Shown one piece after another: positions 10,524-56,240 of a DNA stretch of 64,000 bases. The notes beneath the pieces were generated by a model. The model ran no database searches, was not told the origin of the DNA, and was given only the letters and a program-made list of their open reading frames with translations. Position numbers and translations under genes: made by a program. Origin of the DNA: Darksidea phi (Eukaryota; Ascomycota; Dothideomycetes; Pleosporales; Lentitheciaceae). Location of the stretch: contig JASJFT010000026.1 in the NCBI GenBank assembly GCA_030770425.1, positions 186,001 through 250,000 on the forward strand, written 5' to 3'. How positions within the stretch are numbered: position 1 is the stretch's first letter; every line of letters starts with the position of its first letter.

Positions 10524-11027
10524 TCTCCCAACGAAAGACTATGAAACCATTGCCGCTGATCTGTACCTGATGATTTTAGCTTTTGCGCAACGGGCTGGCG
10601 CTGGGGACGGTAACACGTGAGGTCGAATAGGGTGTAGGTAGGGGCTTCGGCGCGTACCTTCCCGTCGCTGATTATTAAGATGCTGTTATATACACGGTAG
10701 ACTAGCAGGACGCAACTAGAATGTACAAGAAGCAAAGATTTTGTGTTGGAGTGGTTATCTGCAATCATTTGTCAAGCTCCCTCAAAAAGCTCGCGCTCTG
10801 ATATGGCCCGTGCCCCTCTCGTCTTGTCTCCGATCTGGCCGGGTTAACTGGGCGCCAATTAAGTTTCCGCCCGGTTCCGACAGGCTGAGCTCTCGCTAAC
10901 AGACGATTTGGGATTGGATCTCTGCAGCGCTCGCACACAAATCTTTCACTTTCACAACGGGCTATATATTTTTCAATATATAATGCTTATAAGGCAGCAA
11001 AACTTTCATAAACATAACAAACTTACC
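10524..11027. promoter_or_regulatory. Upstream region of the tRNA gene, AT-rich
   Basis: Between a minus-strand gene start and the tRNA. The last 70 bases are AT-rich (TATATATTTTTCAATATATAA near 10963-10983), a place where TFIIIB could sit upstream of a Pol III gene. No coding sequence recognised. Confidence 0.4.
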
Positions 11028-11034
11028 GGCTTCG

Positions 11035-11045
11035 TGGTCTAGTGG
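11035..11045 (+). promoter_or_regulatory. A box of the tRNA gene
   Basis: TGGTCTAGTGG matches the Pol III A-box (TRGYNNARNNG type) in the D arm and is intact. The B box (GTTCGANTC) starts at 11093 but is cut after T-loop A58 by the 52-nt insert. Because the insert begins GT, the DNA still reads GTTCGAGT before it departs from the consensus. Confidence 0.7.
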
Positions 11046-11098
11046 TATGATTCCTGCTTTGGGCTCTAGTTCAAACTTGCAGGAGGCCCCGCGTTCGA

Positions 11099-11150
11099 GT
11101 AAGCATATATCCGCCGACAATTATGAAAAAATTGTCCTAACGTTCATTAG
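11099..11150 (+). other. Spliceosomal-type intron inside the tRNA T-loop
   Basis: A 52-nt segment with 5' GTAAGC, a branch site CTAAC at 11137-11141 and 3' TTAG ending at 11150. The branch A is 10 nt from the end. Length and signals match the mRNA introns in this window (44-75 nt). A small hairpin is possible: ACAATT (11117-11122) with AATTGT (11130-11135). Its exact excision restores tRNA positions 58 and 59 as A-A and a perfect T stem. It does not look like a tRNA-endonuclease intron, which sits at 37/38. Confidence 0.78.
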
Positions 11151-11190
11151 ATCGCGGCGGAGCCCTTAAACACCGTTCGGGTGAAATATC

Positions 11191-11195
11191 TTTTT
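11191..11195 (+). terminator. Probable Pol III terminator (T5)
   Basis: A run of five T on the coding strand 27 nt beyond the tRNA 3' end, the first T-run of that length after the gene. It is a little far but within the usual range for Pol III trailers. Confidence 0.5.
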
Positions 11196-15811: not shown

Positions 15812-18691
15812 TGGGAATTCACGGGTGAGTCTGATATGTCGTTGTATCTCTTCCACAATCATTAATCGTCGCAGTATATATAAAGAGATCGGCCCTGGTC
15901 AGCGCATAGCCCTGTCGAAGCTCGCCGTCGAGAAGTTTGAAGAGACGGGCAGGCCGTTGCGCATTGCTATTGATGTATCCATATGGCTCTTTCAAATACA
16001 AGCTAGCAATGGTAGCTATTCATGCCATCAACCGCATGCGCTGGGTGCTAATCGCGATGACCAGGTGGCACGAATCCTGCGCTGCGCACCTTCTACTACC
16101 GCCTCCTTCGTTTGATCGCCCTCTCTATCCACCCCATTTTTGTATTTGACGGACCGAACAAACCGCCTTTCAAGCGCAACAAACGCACCGGACCGAATGT
16201 CGCATCGATACCGGAATTCCTAGCGAAGCAGCTCCTCAAGCAGTTTGGATTCCCTGTACATCTTGCGCCGGGCGAGGCAGAAGCAGAATGCGCACTATTG
16301 CAGCGGGAAGGCATCGTGGATGCTGTATTGAGCGAAGATGTGGATACCCTCATGTTTGGAAGCGGGTTGACTATTCGCAATTGGTCGCCGGAGCAGAAGA
16401 CGGGCAAGACGCCGACACACGTAAATGTGTATGATGCTGTGCAGACGAAGAATGGGCCAGCTGGGCTAGATCGTGAGGGCATGATATTGATAGCCTTAAT
16501 GAGCGGTGGAGACTACGTCCCAGAAGGCATTCCCGGCTGTGGTCCAAAGACAGCCTGTGAAGCGGCACGAGCAGGTTTCGGATCGGATCTGTGCAAGATC
16601 GCAAGTAACGACAAGAGCGCCATGCGAGAATGGCGAGAGCGATTGCAGCACGAACTCAAAACGAATGAGAGCAAGCTCTTTAACCGAAAACGGCCGAGCA
16701 TGAAGATCCCGGACGACTTTCCTCGTACGGATATACTAGGCTACTACACACATCCTGCGGTATCGTCGCAAGCCGGATTAGATAAACTAAAGCGGACCAT
16801 CAACTGGGATCAAGACCTCGATTTTCCTGGCTTGCGCGATTTTGCATATGATGCCTTTGATTGGGTCAAATTGGAGGGTGCAAAGCATTTCATACGGAGT
16901 CTTGCCCCATCGCTTCTTGTTCGTCATCTTCGATTAAGGGGAGAACAAGCGGATAGATTCCCTTCGAACAATACCCAAGCTATTGAAGAGGATGAAGCGC
17001 TGATCGTGAAAGGCATCCACGGAAAACGACAGCATGCGGTTACCGACAACGCCACGGAGCTCCGGGTGAGCTTCATCCCTATTGAGCTTGTCAAGATCGA
17101 CTTGAGCAACGAAGAGCCGGATGAAGACCCTGATGACCTGCTTCATAGTGCACAAGCACCTGAAGCTGACCCAGACGACGAATTACCACTCGAGCTCGAC
17201 GATGATGTAGACGTAGGGCCTAAGAAGCGAGGACCTACCAAGTTCGACCCTGAAAAACCTGCGCGAGTCTGGCTTCTTGAGACTTATGTGAAGGTTGGCG
17301 TGCCCCTGAAGGTACAAGATTGGGAGGCCGGAAGGCAGAAACCGTTAAAGGCGAAACGAGCAGCTACAACGGATGATGTTAGCAAAACAGCACCGAAACC
17401 TCGTGGAGCGAGACGCACAAAAACTACCGAAGATGCAGCACAAACAAATATTCAACGCTTCGCCAAAGTCACGAAACCAGGCGTCAAACTCTCCCAGGCG
17501 CGATTCAAAGCCCAAACTACGCCTTCAGGCCCTCCCGTTACATCAGAGCTAGCACTGCAGCCAAGCAGGACAGTTGTAGACCTTGTATCCTCATCGCCTG
17601 ATAGACCTTCTGCCTCTGTTCTTCCACCGATGCAACTACCCAAAGAAAAGTCCATCTCCCCGGTTCCAGAATCAACCTCCAGCATTACAAAACGGCGCAG
17701 ATGTGCCCCATTACAACGCTCGAACACGCTTCCTTTGGACCCCACAACCGCACTTGGTCGACAAGGTACGCCTTCATTGGATACAATAGAAACACTGGAC
17801 CTCGTCGATCTACCGCCCTTACACTCACCGTCACGACTTCCTGCTAAAAAGGCAAAGACACGGATCACACAGGCTGCTCCTACGACGCGTGGAACATCGA
17901 TGGTTCCGAACCCCGAAGAGACGAAGCAATCTACGTTAGATGCATGGCGAGGTTCACCAACCGTAGCGCCTACGAAACCCAGAAGGAAAACGCCGCCACC
18001 AGTAATAGCGCCCATTCCACTACCATCGAAGTTCCAGACAACGCCAGATGGGGTAGAAACACTCGACCTCACACTCTCATCCCCGTTACATCCTTCACCC
18101 CCTCCACAACCCGCTAATCCATGCCGAACAATAGCATCAGTCTTCACGTCTCGACAACCACTCGTTTCAATATCCTCAAATGCGTCTCACCTCTCTTCTA
18201 TCCCATCTACATCACGACCAAGCAAGGTCTCAAAATCCAATTTTAAACAACCCTCGCAGAGTACCTGCCTCAGCTCTCCCCACCTCCGCAAAACTAAATC
18301 AGCAAGCCTAGAGGTAGAATCGCTGGACCTGACAGAAACCTCCCCGTCACCTTCCCACTCTAAACCTCCCGCCTCGACGATATCCACCACACCACCCCCG
18401 CCCCAACCCACACTCCGCCGCTCCCCTCGCACGCACATCCCCCCTTCACTCAAACCATCTCCATCAGCAGCATGGAAATCGCAAGCCAAGAAAAAGCGCG
18501 AAATACGTCTGCGGAAGAGTCTAGCAGGGGCCTGGGACTATGTCGACGTAGAGAGTCCTGCTCTAGCTGGAGGGTTTATACGGGGAGGAGATGATGATGA
18601 CGAGGGGAGTTGTAGGGGTACGACGGTGTTGAAGGGGAGGGAAAGGAGGAGATGGCGCGAGAGCGAGATTGAGGTTTTGGATTTGACGTAG
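15812..18691 (+). CDS. yen1: Yen1/GEN1-type Holliday junction resolvase
   Basis: Rad2/XPG-family structure-selective nuclease that cuts Holliday junctions in the nucleus late in the cell cycle. Exons 15812-15825, 15875-16011 and 16065-18691, about 925 aa. The first exon encodes only MGIHG, as expected because XPG proteins begin Met-Gly. The N domain shows IYKEIGPGQRIALSKLA and RIAIDVSIWLFQ (metal-binding Asp), then IHPIFVFDGPNKPPFKR. The I domain shows LAPGEAEAECALLQREG and DAVLSEDVDTLMFG (catalytic Glu and Asp). A helix-hairpin-helix begins SGGDYVPEGIPGCGPKTA. The C-terminal 450 residues are disordered, basic and Ser/Pro-rich, with five repeated hydrophobic-acidic DL motifs that look like SUMO-interacting motifs, and SP sites that fit CDK control. 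The last motif VLDLT is the very C-terminus. Confidence 0.95.
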
Positions 18692-34323: not shown

Positions 34324-36920
34324 TCACCCGACAACAGCCTCCATGCTCAGCCGCTGCAAAAAGGGACTTAGATCATCTTTCTTGATCTCAATCACACAGG
34401 CCTCAAACGAATCCATGCGTACTCTCGCACCCGTCTCTTTCACTACCTCCTGGAAGGCGTTGCCGAATCGGTTTCTCCCCGAACTACGCTCTTTCTCTTC
34501 CTCTTCGTCATCGCTCTCCTCTTCGCTCTCCTCTTCCTCATCCGAGTCGTCTTCAACCTCGTCCTCATCTAAACCAGCAGCTTCCAAGCGAGCGAGACGA
34601 GCTTCCCGTTTCGCTTTCTTTTCGGCAGCTTTAGCAGCTTTCTTAGCTTCACGAGCCTTGAAACGCGCATCCCGTTTCGCTATTCTTTCTTTGGCTGATA
34701 CGGTGGCGCCGCCGCCGCCGAGACCGACGACGACGTAGCGACCTTTTACTTCGTCTAGACCGGCCATGACGAGCTCACTGCCTTTGTTTTTCCCTTTCGT
34801 TCCATTGAGTTCTACGATCGCTTCCGCGATCCAGAGCGCGAGTTTGGTCAGGGCACCAGGGTGCGTAAAAAGCTGGACGTCTGGACCTTCTTTTACAACG
34901 GCCATGCGGAAGGATCGGAGATGACGAATCTGCTTCTTCTCGATAAGGGCAGTGCCTGTGCGGAGGATAGCTTTGTGCAAATACTGTGCTGTGGAGATGT
35001 GTTCGACAAGAAGGTCGATAGAGTTTAGGGAGTCGTACGCTGTCCAGAATCGCGCTGTGATGTGTTCTTGTGCGTCATCATCATTAATTGTGGGGACTTG
35101 TTCAGTGTGGTCTTGTGGTGTGGTGAAATTTGAGGAGTCCAAGGAGGATGCAGAGAGCGATTTTGCGTCACCAACTTCAAGGATGGCACCGAGGATTACG
35201 CCTGCGTCTATTGCGGATAGACAGGCTTTCCAGCCCCAGCAACGAACGAAACCCCAACCGTCTTTTGAGTCGCCGCCACGCGGAGCAGGAGGTACAAGTC
35301 CATCCAGGCCATACTGTGGTGCAAATTTGAGAAGGCGTTCGCGCAGCCCGCGTTTCAGTTCCATATCCATGTGCGTGTAGTTTTGCTTGCATTGGGTGAG
35401 ACTAACCCCCATCTTTGCAAGCAACTTGTCGAGTCGTCGGCGGCCTATGTCGCTCCAAATATGTAGGCGTGCGGAGAGATATGGTGAGTGCAGCATGCTC
35501 TCATATAAGCTCCAGTGCCGGAGGAGGAGAAAGCGAGGCTCGGGGGAGAGGCGGATGGACTTGTCTGTTGCGGAGCGAGCACTGGTAGGGATGACGCCGC
35601 TTGCATCGCCTAGGCTTACTTCGCGTGCGTTTTCTCTGGTGTCGATGGCGGGGTTCAATCGGCGTACTTCATCGCGAAGCACAGCACGTATACGTTCTCC
35701 TCGGTCGCCGTTCCAGCCGGCTGAACCACCTGCCGCTGACAGCGGATTGAGGCCCACACCACTACCCGTTCGGCCGTACAATTCGAGACTACTGACACCG
35801 ACTATGGCATTCCAGAGGAGGTCGTTGTCTTCTCGACCTAACTCTGATGCTAGCGAGTAAACAAGAGAGGAGACCGGTTCCGAGTATGTGGCACCCAATT
35901 GGTAGTACTTGTCAAGTACGTTTGTGTATTTGTTTCGAAGAGCCATCAGTTGTTTTCGCATACTCTTGATAGACTTCTCCTTAGGTGCGGCTATTGCTGG
36001 TGATGCGGACCGGCTGCGGGAATCGGAACGTGAGAAGTCGGAGGACCCGCCTAGTATCATGAGACCGCGTCGGGGTGGTCTTCGTTCGGGTGATGATGGT
36101 ATTGAACCTCCCTGTGCAATGTGTTAAAAATATGACTTTGGGGTGAAACGTATAGACGTACTGAATTACTCCTCCGTCTTTGCGCAGGACGCTCATCGTC
36201 AGACATATGCTCATCCGAGTCCTCGCCATCACTCCACGATTTTCTTTTCTTCGGCAGCTGACCCGACATAGGAGACTCGCCCTCCTCATCCTCATCCTCC
36301 TCTTCGTCTGACCCTATATCCTCTCCCACATCTGGCATCTCCTCCAACGCGCAATAAGCCTGCCGCTCCGCCTCAAGCTCTTCCTCAATATCCCCATCAT
36401 CAAATACTATTATCCCTCCTTTTGTAGACTGGTACGTGTGCAGCAACCGTCCCTTATCTACACCAGTCCGTCTCCTTAGTAGCTCGCCCGTAACAGCATC
36501 CACACTCAGCGGCGTCCCAAATACGTTCGACAAGTTCCACGGCCGCCGGGCATCCATAACCCAGACCTCAACGTCTCCGGTCCCGCCATTCCCTTGCTCG
36601 TCCACGTCCATGCCGAAAATCTCTTCTAGATCCACCATACCACCGACACCTAAACAAACCACAACACCACCGTTTCCACCTTCTGTTGTTCGCATAGGTT
36701 GTATGAGATCTTCGGCCGCGCGGTATAGGTCGCCATATCCGGCAATTGGTTGGATCTTGTGCGGTATATAGTCGCGTTTTAGCAGCGCGGTGAGGATGCG
36801 ACATGCGCAGAGCGCGTCGGGCTCGAGCGCGACAAGTAGGAGGACTGGAGGAGCGGCAGCATGGTTGCGTTTGACAAGGTTTTGGTAGAGGTGTGCTACC
36901 AGGTTCCTAGGAAGATACAT
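34324..36920 (-). CDS. cdc45: Cdc45, CMG replicative helicase component
   Basis: Joins Mcm2-7 and GINS to make the active helicase at replication origins. Exons 36920-36162 and 36111-34324 (50-nt intron, phase 0), 848 aa. The N-terminus MYLPRNLVAHLYQNLVKR and PVLLLVALEPDALCACRIL are the DHH-like fold of Cdc45. VEVWVMDARRPWNLSNVFG follows, then an acidic Glu/Asp run. After the intron come a Ser/Arg-rich linker and KSMRKQLMALRNKYTNVLDK, YYQLGATYSEPVSSLVYSLA, DNDLLWNAIVGVSSLE and MGVSLTQCKQNYTHMDMELK. Near the C-terminus an unusual charged insert (about 755-815: Lys/Arg/Ala helix then a Glu/Asp run) precedes the conserved end VIEIKKDDLSPFLQRL. The acidic runs may bind Mcm or other partners; this is inference. 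Confidence 0.95.
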
Positions 36921-55205: not shown

Positions 55206-56240
55206 TTTTCGTTTGGGACTGGGGTCGTAACCTGTCGAGACGTTGCGCTTTGTGCGCCAACTAGAGCCAGGTATGGAAGAGCGTAGTTCAGATTAAGGGA
55301 AGGTTGTGGAGTAATGAGAGTAGGATAAGAGGATGGAGGATTATAAGGAAGGTGAGGGAAAGTGGAAGGGCATTTATATGGGTGGGAACGGGAATTGCGA
55401 CAGCAGGTAAGAAAGAGAAGACGATCAACGCCGGTACTAATCTGGGGGCGCAGGTGAGAGACTCGGGAGCCGACAGGCTGTTGTATAGTATTATTTCGAA
55501 AGTCTGCGGAGCAAGGCGTCAAGTGAGGGCATGATGGTGTATTCCTAGGAGAAGATTCACTTCTCCTTAAACACTGCTATGACTATTCCGAACAAGAACT
55601 GATCAATCTGTGCGCACGGAGAGAAGCTCATAACGCTTGAGGACGGTTGGAAAGAGCGTGCAAGAATTTTGCATGAGTCTTGCTAATTGGGTTGGCTTCG
55701 AGCAGGAGGGCGCATTTGTCCAGTGGAATCCAGCGAATCGGTCGATCGCTCTATCTAAAAGACAGTTACATGTCTATCAAAAGGTAGAACATTAGCAAGA
55801 TGCGCTAATGCCGCAAAGGGTTCAATAGGTCGGAACTTCTCGGCCCGAGGAGGCTTGGCGGGCAGGCTGCTTCTGTGCCTGTCCAGACTTCTCGAATATT
55901 CTCTCCAGAACCCTCTATTTGTATCACATCAGCTCTACCCAACTTCCGTTCCTTGGACTTCGTTCAGCTACTGCTCGACCAGCTTTTGCGACAATTAGAT
56001 TTGGTACGTACAATCTGAGTACTTTCGTATTCCCCTGTTCGAATGATGAAATTTCCAGCTGGCACCAGTCCTAGAAGACTTGTACTCTTTTGATGCGGAT
56101 CAGCTTTGCGGGAGCATAGCTCCTAGTCCTGACAACACGAATCTGTCCCGTTTCTCTACGCTTTTGTGAGAGATTGACGCTAATTGTACCCAATGCAGAA
56201 CTTCTAGGAGTGATTCAAAGCCCACGCTGCGCCGGTCACG
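55206..56240. other. Divergent promoter region, large GTPase / aha1
   Basis: 1035 nt with no supported gene; frames of 70-106 aa at 55202-55534 are GA/CT-rich artefacts of the leader. Confidence 0.4.

Follow-up and report, generated by a model that had tools for sequence, protein, structure and literature searches.

The tRNA-Pro(TGG) gene in the window, i.e., the whole stretch of 64,000 nucleotides of Darksidea phi DNA analysed here, is interrupted in its T loop by a segment (11099-11150). Very probably, the gene is a functional nuclear one and the segment a spliceosomal intron of the U2 type, with no fewer than 13 introns of this kind distributed over 12 tRNA genes in the genome. The presence of similar interruptions in at least 11 other tRNA genes suggests, as judged from their sequences, that the spliceosome is needed to make these tRNAs. 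The best reading of the data is that these are working genes whose transcripts would require both the spliceosome and the tRNA endonuclease.

The T-loop insert of the tRNA-Pro(TGG) gene

ARAGORN did not call any tRNA from the unspliced gene, and the gene was not recognised by the Rfam tRNA model even at E<=10. The initial annotation of the window had proposed that a tRNA fold requires the removal of a 52-nt segment, and this is exactly what we observed: after deleting 11099-11150, ARAGORN called a tRNA-Pro(tgg) containing a normal 14-nt intron at position 37/38, and the acceptor stem (7/7), the T stem (5/5) and the T loop TTCGAAT were all rebuilt as predicted. The start of the gene had also been placed correctly at 11028, but its end is shifted from the proposed 11164 to 11165, with a C as discriminator base. 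The removal was further evaluated by an excision test comprising 2,359 trial removals of 40-70 nt around the site, 11099-11150 among them. A tRNA was obtained from 34 of the removals. These all map to a single place in the T loop, and 11099-11150 is the only one of them with GT...AG ends. The splice signals described before (a GTAAGC donor, CTAAC located 10 nt before the end, and a terminal TTAG) agree with the sequence, the acceptor being TAG. The features of the gene, together with the other interrupted tRNA genes and the native mRNA introns used for comparison, are listed in Table 1.

Table 1. Features of the window and interrupted tRNA genes elsewhere in the genome (positions without a contig name refer to the window; BHB, bulge-helix-bulge).
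Feature	Location	Strand	Remarks
TATA-like run upstream, about -65 to -45 from gene	10963..10983	+	simple motif, putative
tRNA-Pro(TGG) gene, two interruptions	11028..11165	+	138 nt; 72 nt without both introns; ARAGORN and stem pairing
tRNA exon 1, up to position 37, anticodon TGG	11028..11063	+	
14-nt intron at 37/38, ordinary tRNA-endonuclease type	11064..11077	+	central BHB helix 4/4
tRNA exon 2, positions 38-58, 3' end ...CGTTCGA	11078..11098	+	
Best remaining B box in interrupted gene, CGTTCGAGTAA	11092..11102	+	score 3.7
52-nt spliceosomal-type intron (very probable) GTAAGC...TTAG, T loop 58/59	11099..11150	+	excision, motif and pairing tests
Branch-site consensus CTAAC	11137..11141	+	branch A = 11140, 10 nt from intron 3' end
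tRNA exon 3, positions 59-73, ATCGCGGCGGAGCCC	11151..11165	+	
TTTTT, first Pol III terminator-like run	11191..11195	+	starts +26 from gene end
GEN1/YEN1 native mRNA intron 1, 50 nt	15825..15874	+	ends by reading frame
GEN1/YEN1 native mRNA intron 2, 53 nt	16012..16064	+	ends by reading frame
CDC45 native mRNA intron, 50 nt	36112..36161	-	homologous protein
Second Pro-TGG	C467, L002/L057		37/38 intron and 51-nt GTAAGT...ACTAAT...CAG insert at 53/54
Pro-CGG	C157		51-nt insert at 58/59
Gly-CCC	C79		insert at 58/59
Trp	C57		insert at 45/46
Two initiator-type Met	C312		inserts at 54/55
Gln-TTG	C149:44952-45170, L121		insert at 53/54
Gln-CTG	C335		insert at 54/55
Leu-CAA	C85:54180-54620, L131	-	inserts at 49/50 and 34/35 (inside anticodon)
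Two of three Glu-CTC	C335 and C440		inserts at 52/53

Further interrupted tRNA genes in the genome

A non-exhaustive search of the genome assembly (477 contigs totalling 51.35 Mb, of unstated completeness) yielded 12 nuclear tRNA genes with 13 mRNA-type inserts. They comprise the genes for Pro-TGG (2), Pro-CGG, Gly-CCC, initiator-type Met (2), Trp, Gln-TTG, Gln-CTG, Leu-CAA (with two inserts) and Glu-CTC (2), the Met genes being taken as initiator genes because of their ATCGAAA T loop. The 12 loci are spread over 10 contigs (C57, C79, C85, C149, C157, C179, C312 twice, C335 twice, C440 and C467), and each of them carries its own, different insert sequence. The inserts are located at positions 58/59 (3), 54/55 (3), 53/54 (2), 52/53 (2), 49/50, 45/46 and 34/35, corresponding to six sites in the T arm or V loop and one inside the anticodon, and none of the 13 is found at 55/56 to 57/58, the core of the B box. 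All positions were computed except the 34/35 site of the Leu-CAA gene, which was read from the spliced loop. The latter gene also contains a 28-nt intron of the 37/38 type, as indicated by ARAGORN, and therefore carries three introns in one tRNA gene.

Most of these genes were identified by searching for D arms. The search with a Pro D-arm pattern, which takes no account of the T arm, returned six matches including four tRNA-Pro genes (TGG twice, CGG and AGG), with the Pro-AGG gene (C201) as the sole uninterrupted Pro gene found, containing a 37/38 intron only. Counting the tRNA-Pro(TGG) genes, as envisaged in the initial annotation, thus added one further gene with an insert at 53/54. The scenario of a dead gene discussed there, with intact Pro-TGG copies elsewhere and decay at this locus, did not emerge, since the only other Pro-TGG gene found is interrupted too, as is the Pro-CGG gene, and the stems are undamaged. 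Six D-arm searches in total, with 6 + 10 + 79 + 9 + 4 + 8 matches, revealed 34 clear nuclear tRNA genes by reading, 11 of them interrupted. This count excludes mitochondrial matches (C304, C417), non-tRNA matches, the odd or tRNA-like loci L027, L049, L132 and C382, and 56 two-mismatch matches of the search with 79 matches. The Gly-CCC gene is the twelfth interrupted gene. The string GTTCRAGTAAG gave 40 matches genome-wide versus 74 for a backward-read control, and inspecting the surroundings of all 40 matches revealed three tRNA genes, namely those of the window, Pro-CGG and Gly-CCC.

Other search methods were of differing sensitivity. A genome search with a tRNA model, in which 63 of 1,735 candidates were scored, resulted in 50 matches and missed the intact Phe and Pro-AGG genes found by the D-arm patterns. 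A covariance model built from the genome's own tRNAs was tried on seven loci and scored both Pro-TGG genes, one of them with a wrong end. Spliced Pro sequences used as queries in a DNA search matched their own genes only, indicating that it lacks the sensitivity needed to demonstrate absence. The exact Pro D-arm pattern did not match any of the prokaryotic genome contigs or viral contigs.

Several additional loci were recorded during these searches. L027 (C51, Thr-like) and L049 (C119, Cys-like) contain D and anticodon arms with a truncated T loop (TTA) and were missed by ARAGORN; they are either decayed copies or something odder. In L132 (C451:12750-13150), a D arm and acceptor of the Leu type (GACAAGATGGCCGAGTGG) are not followed by any recognisable T arm. 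L075 (C42:20488) and L084 (C96:92612) are similar, but non-identical stretches sharing the common sequence ...GACGAGTTCGAGTAAGTGTACA..., which possibly represent a repeat rather than a clear tRNA. The window itself also contains a C/D snoRNA at 56041-56133 on the plus strand, matching Rfam Afu_190.

Common properties of the inserts

The spliceosomal-type intron proposed for the T loop of the window gene shares its length and splice signals with the complete set of 13 inserts in 12 genes. All 13 inserts start with GT and end with AG, and their lengths (52, 51, 51, 50, 53, 51, 51, 52, 55, 52, 51, 51 and 50 nt) stay within 50-55 nt. A CTRAY branch site is present in 12 inserts, the window intron included, the exception being Pro-CGG with TTGAC, and the branch A is located 10 nt from the intron end in ten cases and 11, 12 and 12 nt in the others. 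The donors are GTAAGT or GTAAGC in 8 of the 13 inserts, with one weak donor, GTTAGA, in the Leu-CAA gene, and the acceptors conform to YAG in 11 inserts and are AAG in two (Gly-CCC and Gln-TTG). Depending on the insert, one to five registers of removal would give the same product, and exactly one of these has GT..AG ends in all 13 cases. GT..AG ends together with a properly placed branch site are what the spliceosome reads. The Gln-TTG intron ends with the tandem acceptors CAGAAG, and splicing to the first of them, CAG, would add three bases to the T loop.

The chance background for these signals was taken from 319,739 overlapping stretches of 50, 51, 52, 53 and 55 nt on the plus strand of the window. 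GT..AG ends occurred in 1,179 of them (0.37%), and GT..AG ends combined with CTRAY at branch distance in 105 (0.033%). The 37/38 introns of the same interrupted genes are 10-29 nt long, and none of the eight that were delimited has GT..AG ends; this set leaves out those of the Leu gene, whose ends are uncertain, and the Glu genes, and the ends of the Gly and Gln introns could shift by a base. The 4-bp core of a bulge-helix-bulge motif is complete in none of the 13 inserts (best value, 3 of 4), while a 4/4 core was obtained with one or more registers for three of the eight 37/38 introns, a comparison that favours the 37/38 introns because registers from -2 to +2 were allowed for them and only the GT..AG register for the inserts.

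As a yardstick for the inserts, we used native mRNA introns of the same genome. The initial annotation had described the window insert as being as long as nearby mRNA introns, which is borne out by the three native introns of the window (50, 53 and 50 nt). With a further one of 47 nt in a chitin-synthase-like gene (L089), likewise fixed by its reading frame, the 50-55 nt of the inserts compare with 50, 53, 50 and 47 nt in four native introns. A survey of splice motifs over the window gave 40 instances versus 31 +/- 4 in a first-order random control, and because this is little above random, the yardstick was limited to introns fixed by proteins or reading frames. The window proteins Tam41, CDC45 and GEN1 are 90%, 95% and 73% identical to those of Lentithecium fluviatile.

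Integrity of the interrupted genes

Removal of the inserts resulted in complete acceptor stems (7/7) and T stems (5/5) in all 12 genes. When the 37/38 intron was removed as well, ARAGORN returned the expected isotype in all ten genes run, the Leu-CAA gene being run with the inserts alone removed. The two interrupted Glu genes were checked by pairing and by comparison with their intact twin, which ARAGORN identifies as Glu(ctc), rather than by a run of the spliced sequence. Removing only the insert also led to tRNA calls in 10/10 genes, three of which were named Ser because ARAGORN puts the 37/38 intron elsewhere. The unspliced genes gave a wrong ARAGORN model in three of ten cases, Trp being misread as Arg-TCT and Leu as Met-CAT. 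The spliced Trp tRNA contains an A.C mismatch in its anticodon stem.

Two gene families contain both interrupted and intact members. The intact initiator Met gene L010 (C334) and the interrupted gene L113 (C312) are identical in 72 of 72 exon nucleotides, such that L113 consists of the L010 exons plus a 53-nt insert, and their flanks are unlike. Of the three Glu-CTC genes, one is intact and two are interrupted, and all are identical outside their introns, those at 37/38 differing among them. The mature sequence is therefore the same with or without an insert in both families.

For several other isotypes, only interrupted genes were found. Among the genes revealed by the searches, inserts are present in both nuclear Gln genes, in the sole nuclear Trp gene and in each of the three Pro genes with a TGG or CGG anticodon. 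Neither the tRNA model nor the D-arm patterns detected an intact nuclear copy for Gln, Trp, Pro-TGG or Pro-CGG; these searches were non-exhaustive, and intact genes for Gln, Trp or Pro-CGG may have escaped them or be located outside the 477-contig assembly. The Pro-AGG tRNA, read as IGG after deamination, would not read CCG. As far as the genes found tell, a cell incapable of removing the inserts would apparently have no cytosolic tRNA for Gln, for Trp or for reading CCG.

Signals for transcription by Pol III

The B boxes were scored with a matrix derived from 20 intact tRNAs, whose own scores are 10-18. Six of the 12 interrupted genes retain a B box at or near the score of the spliced gene (the second Pro-TGG, Trp, Gln-TTG, Leu-CAA and both Glu-CTC genes), and in three others, those with inserts at 58/59, it is weakened. 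These include the window gene, which scores 3.7 in its interrupted and 6.8 in its spliced form. The B box is broken in one Met gene (iMet_c, -0.4) and in Gln-CTG (1.2), both with inserts at 54/55. The remaining gene (iMet_b, identical to L113, C312:8153-8469, minus strand) has its own B box split by the intron, and the intron contains TGTTCGATTCC, which scores 14.5 compared to 10.0 for the spliced gene. The initial annotation had assumed that the GT of the intron keeps the next B-box bases near consensus; this applies to the three 58/59 inserts, although even these boxes are weakened, and fails as a general rule. We likewise rejected B-box preservation as a rule, which holds for half of the genes and clearly fails in the two at 54/55. 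The B-box pattern over the 13 inserts, none of which lies in the box core, is taken as a hint.

TATA-like matches were detected upstream of 7 of the 12 genes, in a scan which covered only 13-26 nt of upstream sequence for the two Gln and two Glu genes. The window gene has TATA[AT] matches at -65, -63, -51 and -49, and the Trp gene has no TATA-like match in about 50 nt upstream. A run of four or more T starts at most 26 nt past the gene end in all 12 genes. Avoidance of T runs within the introns was considered as a Pol III signature and discarded, because the absence of T4 is explained by chance (shuffle P 0.22).

Alternative explanations

The interrupted genes may be regarded as dead copies containing inserted sequence, with the real tRNAs being made from intact copies. 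This would accord with the available excerpts of a published account, in which D- or T-arm insertions in eukaryotic tRNA genes are mostly treated as supposed pseudogenes, with algae and nucleomorphs as exceptions (PMC4090602), as well as with the existence of intact initiator Met and Glu-CTC genes and the non-exhaustive genome search. We nevertheless consider it improbable in view of the fully paired acceptor and T stems in 12/12 genes, the 72/72 identity of the Met exons to their intact twin, the failure to find intact nuclear Gln, Trp, Pro-TGG or Pro-CGG genes, and the composition of the inserts, which are not random DNA (13/13 with GT..AG, 12 with CTRAY). An artefact of assembly or sample, with inserts or chimaeric genes that are absent from the organism, has a practically negligible probability: even for an assembly of 477 contigs without given completeness, it would have to account for twelve loci on 10 contigs, every one with a different insert sequence.

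Removal of the inserts by the tRNA splicing endonuclease, as for the ectopic introns of Cyanidioschyzon, cryptophyte nucleomorphs and archaea, is very unlikely, although the sites as such would have parallels, since the accessible parts of two reports place archaeal introns at 45/46, 53/54, 56/57, 59/60 and other sites and describe nucleomorph introns that in many cases lack a defined BHB and whose mode of excision is unknown (PMC4090602, PMC3978253). The endonuclease requires no GT..AG ends, branch site or fixed length, yet these are present in 13/13 and 12/13 inserts and within 50-55 nt; the position for the fungal enzyme is 37/38, where none of the 13 inserts is located; and a complete 4-bp BHB helix occurs in 0/13 inserts versus 3/8 of the 37/38 introns, albeit with registers favouring the latter. 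The inserts might also be real spliceosomal introns that are tolerated without serving these tRNAs, if the tRNA halves are joined at a negligible rate or exclusively in read-through transcripts of Pol II. Spliceosomes normally act on Pol II transcripts, and two of the genes have broken B boxes, but the cell would then be short of Gln and Trp tRNAs unless copies have been missed, and yeast is capable of removing ectopic spliceosomal introns from Pol I rRNA, according to an excerpt of the respective study (PMC8527467). We therefore regard this explanation as exceedingly improbable.

Proposed processing and origin of the introns

If the genes are working and their inserts are spliceosomal introns, Pol III would transcribe each gene as far as the downstream T run, and the spliceosome would take the 50-55-nt intron out of the uncapped precursor, allowing the T arm to fold. 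The tRNA endonuclease measures the folded tRNA body, and together with the ligase it would next remove the 37/38 intron. Because the T arm cannot form before the insert is removed, we infer that the spliceosome would act first. Going by the genes found, we hold it fairly probable that the spliceosome is an essential tRNA-processing machine in this lineage, with the Gln, Trp and CCG-reading Pro tRNAs requiring spliceosomal removal in the T arm or V loop, and Leu-CAA in the anticodon, before the tRNA endonuclease acts, with a gain or precise loss of the introns that is so recent that occupied and empty twins are still visible, and with at least one intron supplying a replacement B box.

The lineage probably acquired the introns one at a time. 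A possible route is the reverse splicing of an intron into a tRNA precursor, which would then have been copied back into the genome by reverse transcription and recombination. The intact twins could be either empty sites or the products of precise losses. No second copy of the window intron was detected in the genome at the sensitivity of that search, and the 13 inserts show no clear similarity among each other (best z of 3.8 among 78 pairs); the six most similar pairs do not include that of the two Glu introns, which share their site. A multiplying introner is thus not seen, and we rejected an introner-like element, for which near-identical genome copies are expected. Group I or II ribozymes were rejected because they cannot fit in about 50 nt.

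If the introns are spliced as proposed, one class of transcripts would depend on both splicing machineries, acting one after the other in a set order, and the supply of tRNAs, and with it translation, could be limited by the activity of the spliceosome. The genes would also provide a clean test bed for the origin of new spliceosomal introns, since the constrained, alignable product of about 72 nt and the presence of empty and occupied twins in one genome make reverse splicing into folded RNA directly testable. Because ARAGORN misses or misreads the interrupted genes, as does the Rfam tRNA model, an automatic annotation of this genome might lack tRNAs for Gln and Trp, and other genomes may hide more such genes.

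Comparison with known systems

We did not find any report on spliceosomal introns in tRNA genes in the open-licence literature. A precedent among Pol III genes is represented by some fungal U6 snRNA genes, which carry spliceosomal introns with reverse splicing as their proposed source. Reverse splicing is easily pictured for U6 as part of the active site of the spliceosome, in contrast to a tRNA. The single U6 gene found in this genome (L050, C179:23388-23487, on the same contig as the window) is uninterrupted, and U6 was therefore rejected as a second carrier of such introns. A B-box-like sequence, GGGTTCGATTTC, is located downstream of this gene.

Spliceosomal introns in the rRNA genes of ascomycetes were reportedly described by Rogers 1993, Cubero 2000 and Bhattacharya 2000. 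Ectopic introns of this kind in nuclear rRNA genes also figure in the available excerpts of more recent papers (PMC11782384, PMC11889510, PMC8527467). Like the tRNA inserts, they are spliceosomal-type introns in a non-coding RNA outside the realm of Pol II, but they reside in a large, structured Pol I transcript, whereas the genes reported here would yield a product of about 72 nt from short exons and would involve a second splicing system acting on the same transcript.

In the accessible parts of a 2026 review, tRNA splicing is described as spliceosome-independent (PMC13149111). Introns outside position 37/38, in the T arm or V loop and with several per gene, are also known from the tRNAs of archaea, Cyanidioschyzon merolae and nucleomorphs. 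As far as the available excerpts of the respective reports go, the tRNA endonuclease cuts the archaeal and C. merolae introns at BHB-type motifs, those of the G. theta nucleomorph are 3-24 nt long and in many cases without a defined BHB, with an unknown mechanism of excision, and none of them is described as GT..AG or spliceosomal (PMC4090602, PMC3978253). The canonical 37/38 introns, which are present in most of the same genes, differ from the inserts in their position, in their lack of GT..AG ends (0/8) and in their length of 10-29 nt.
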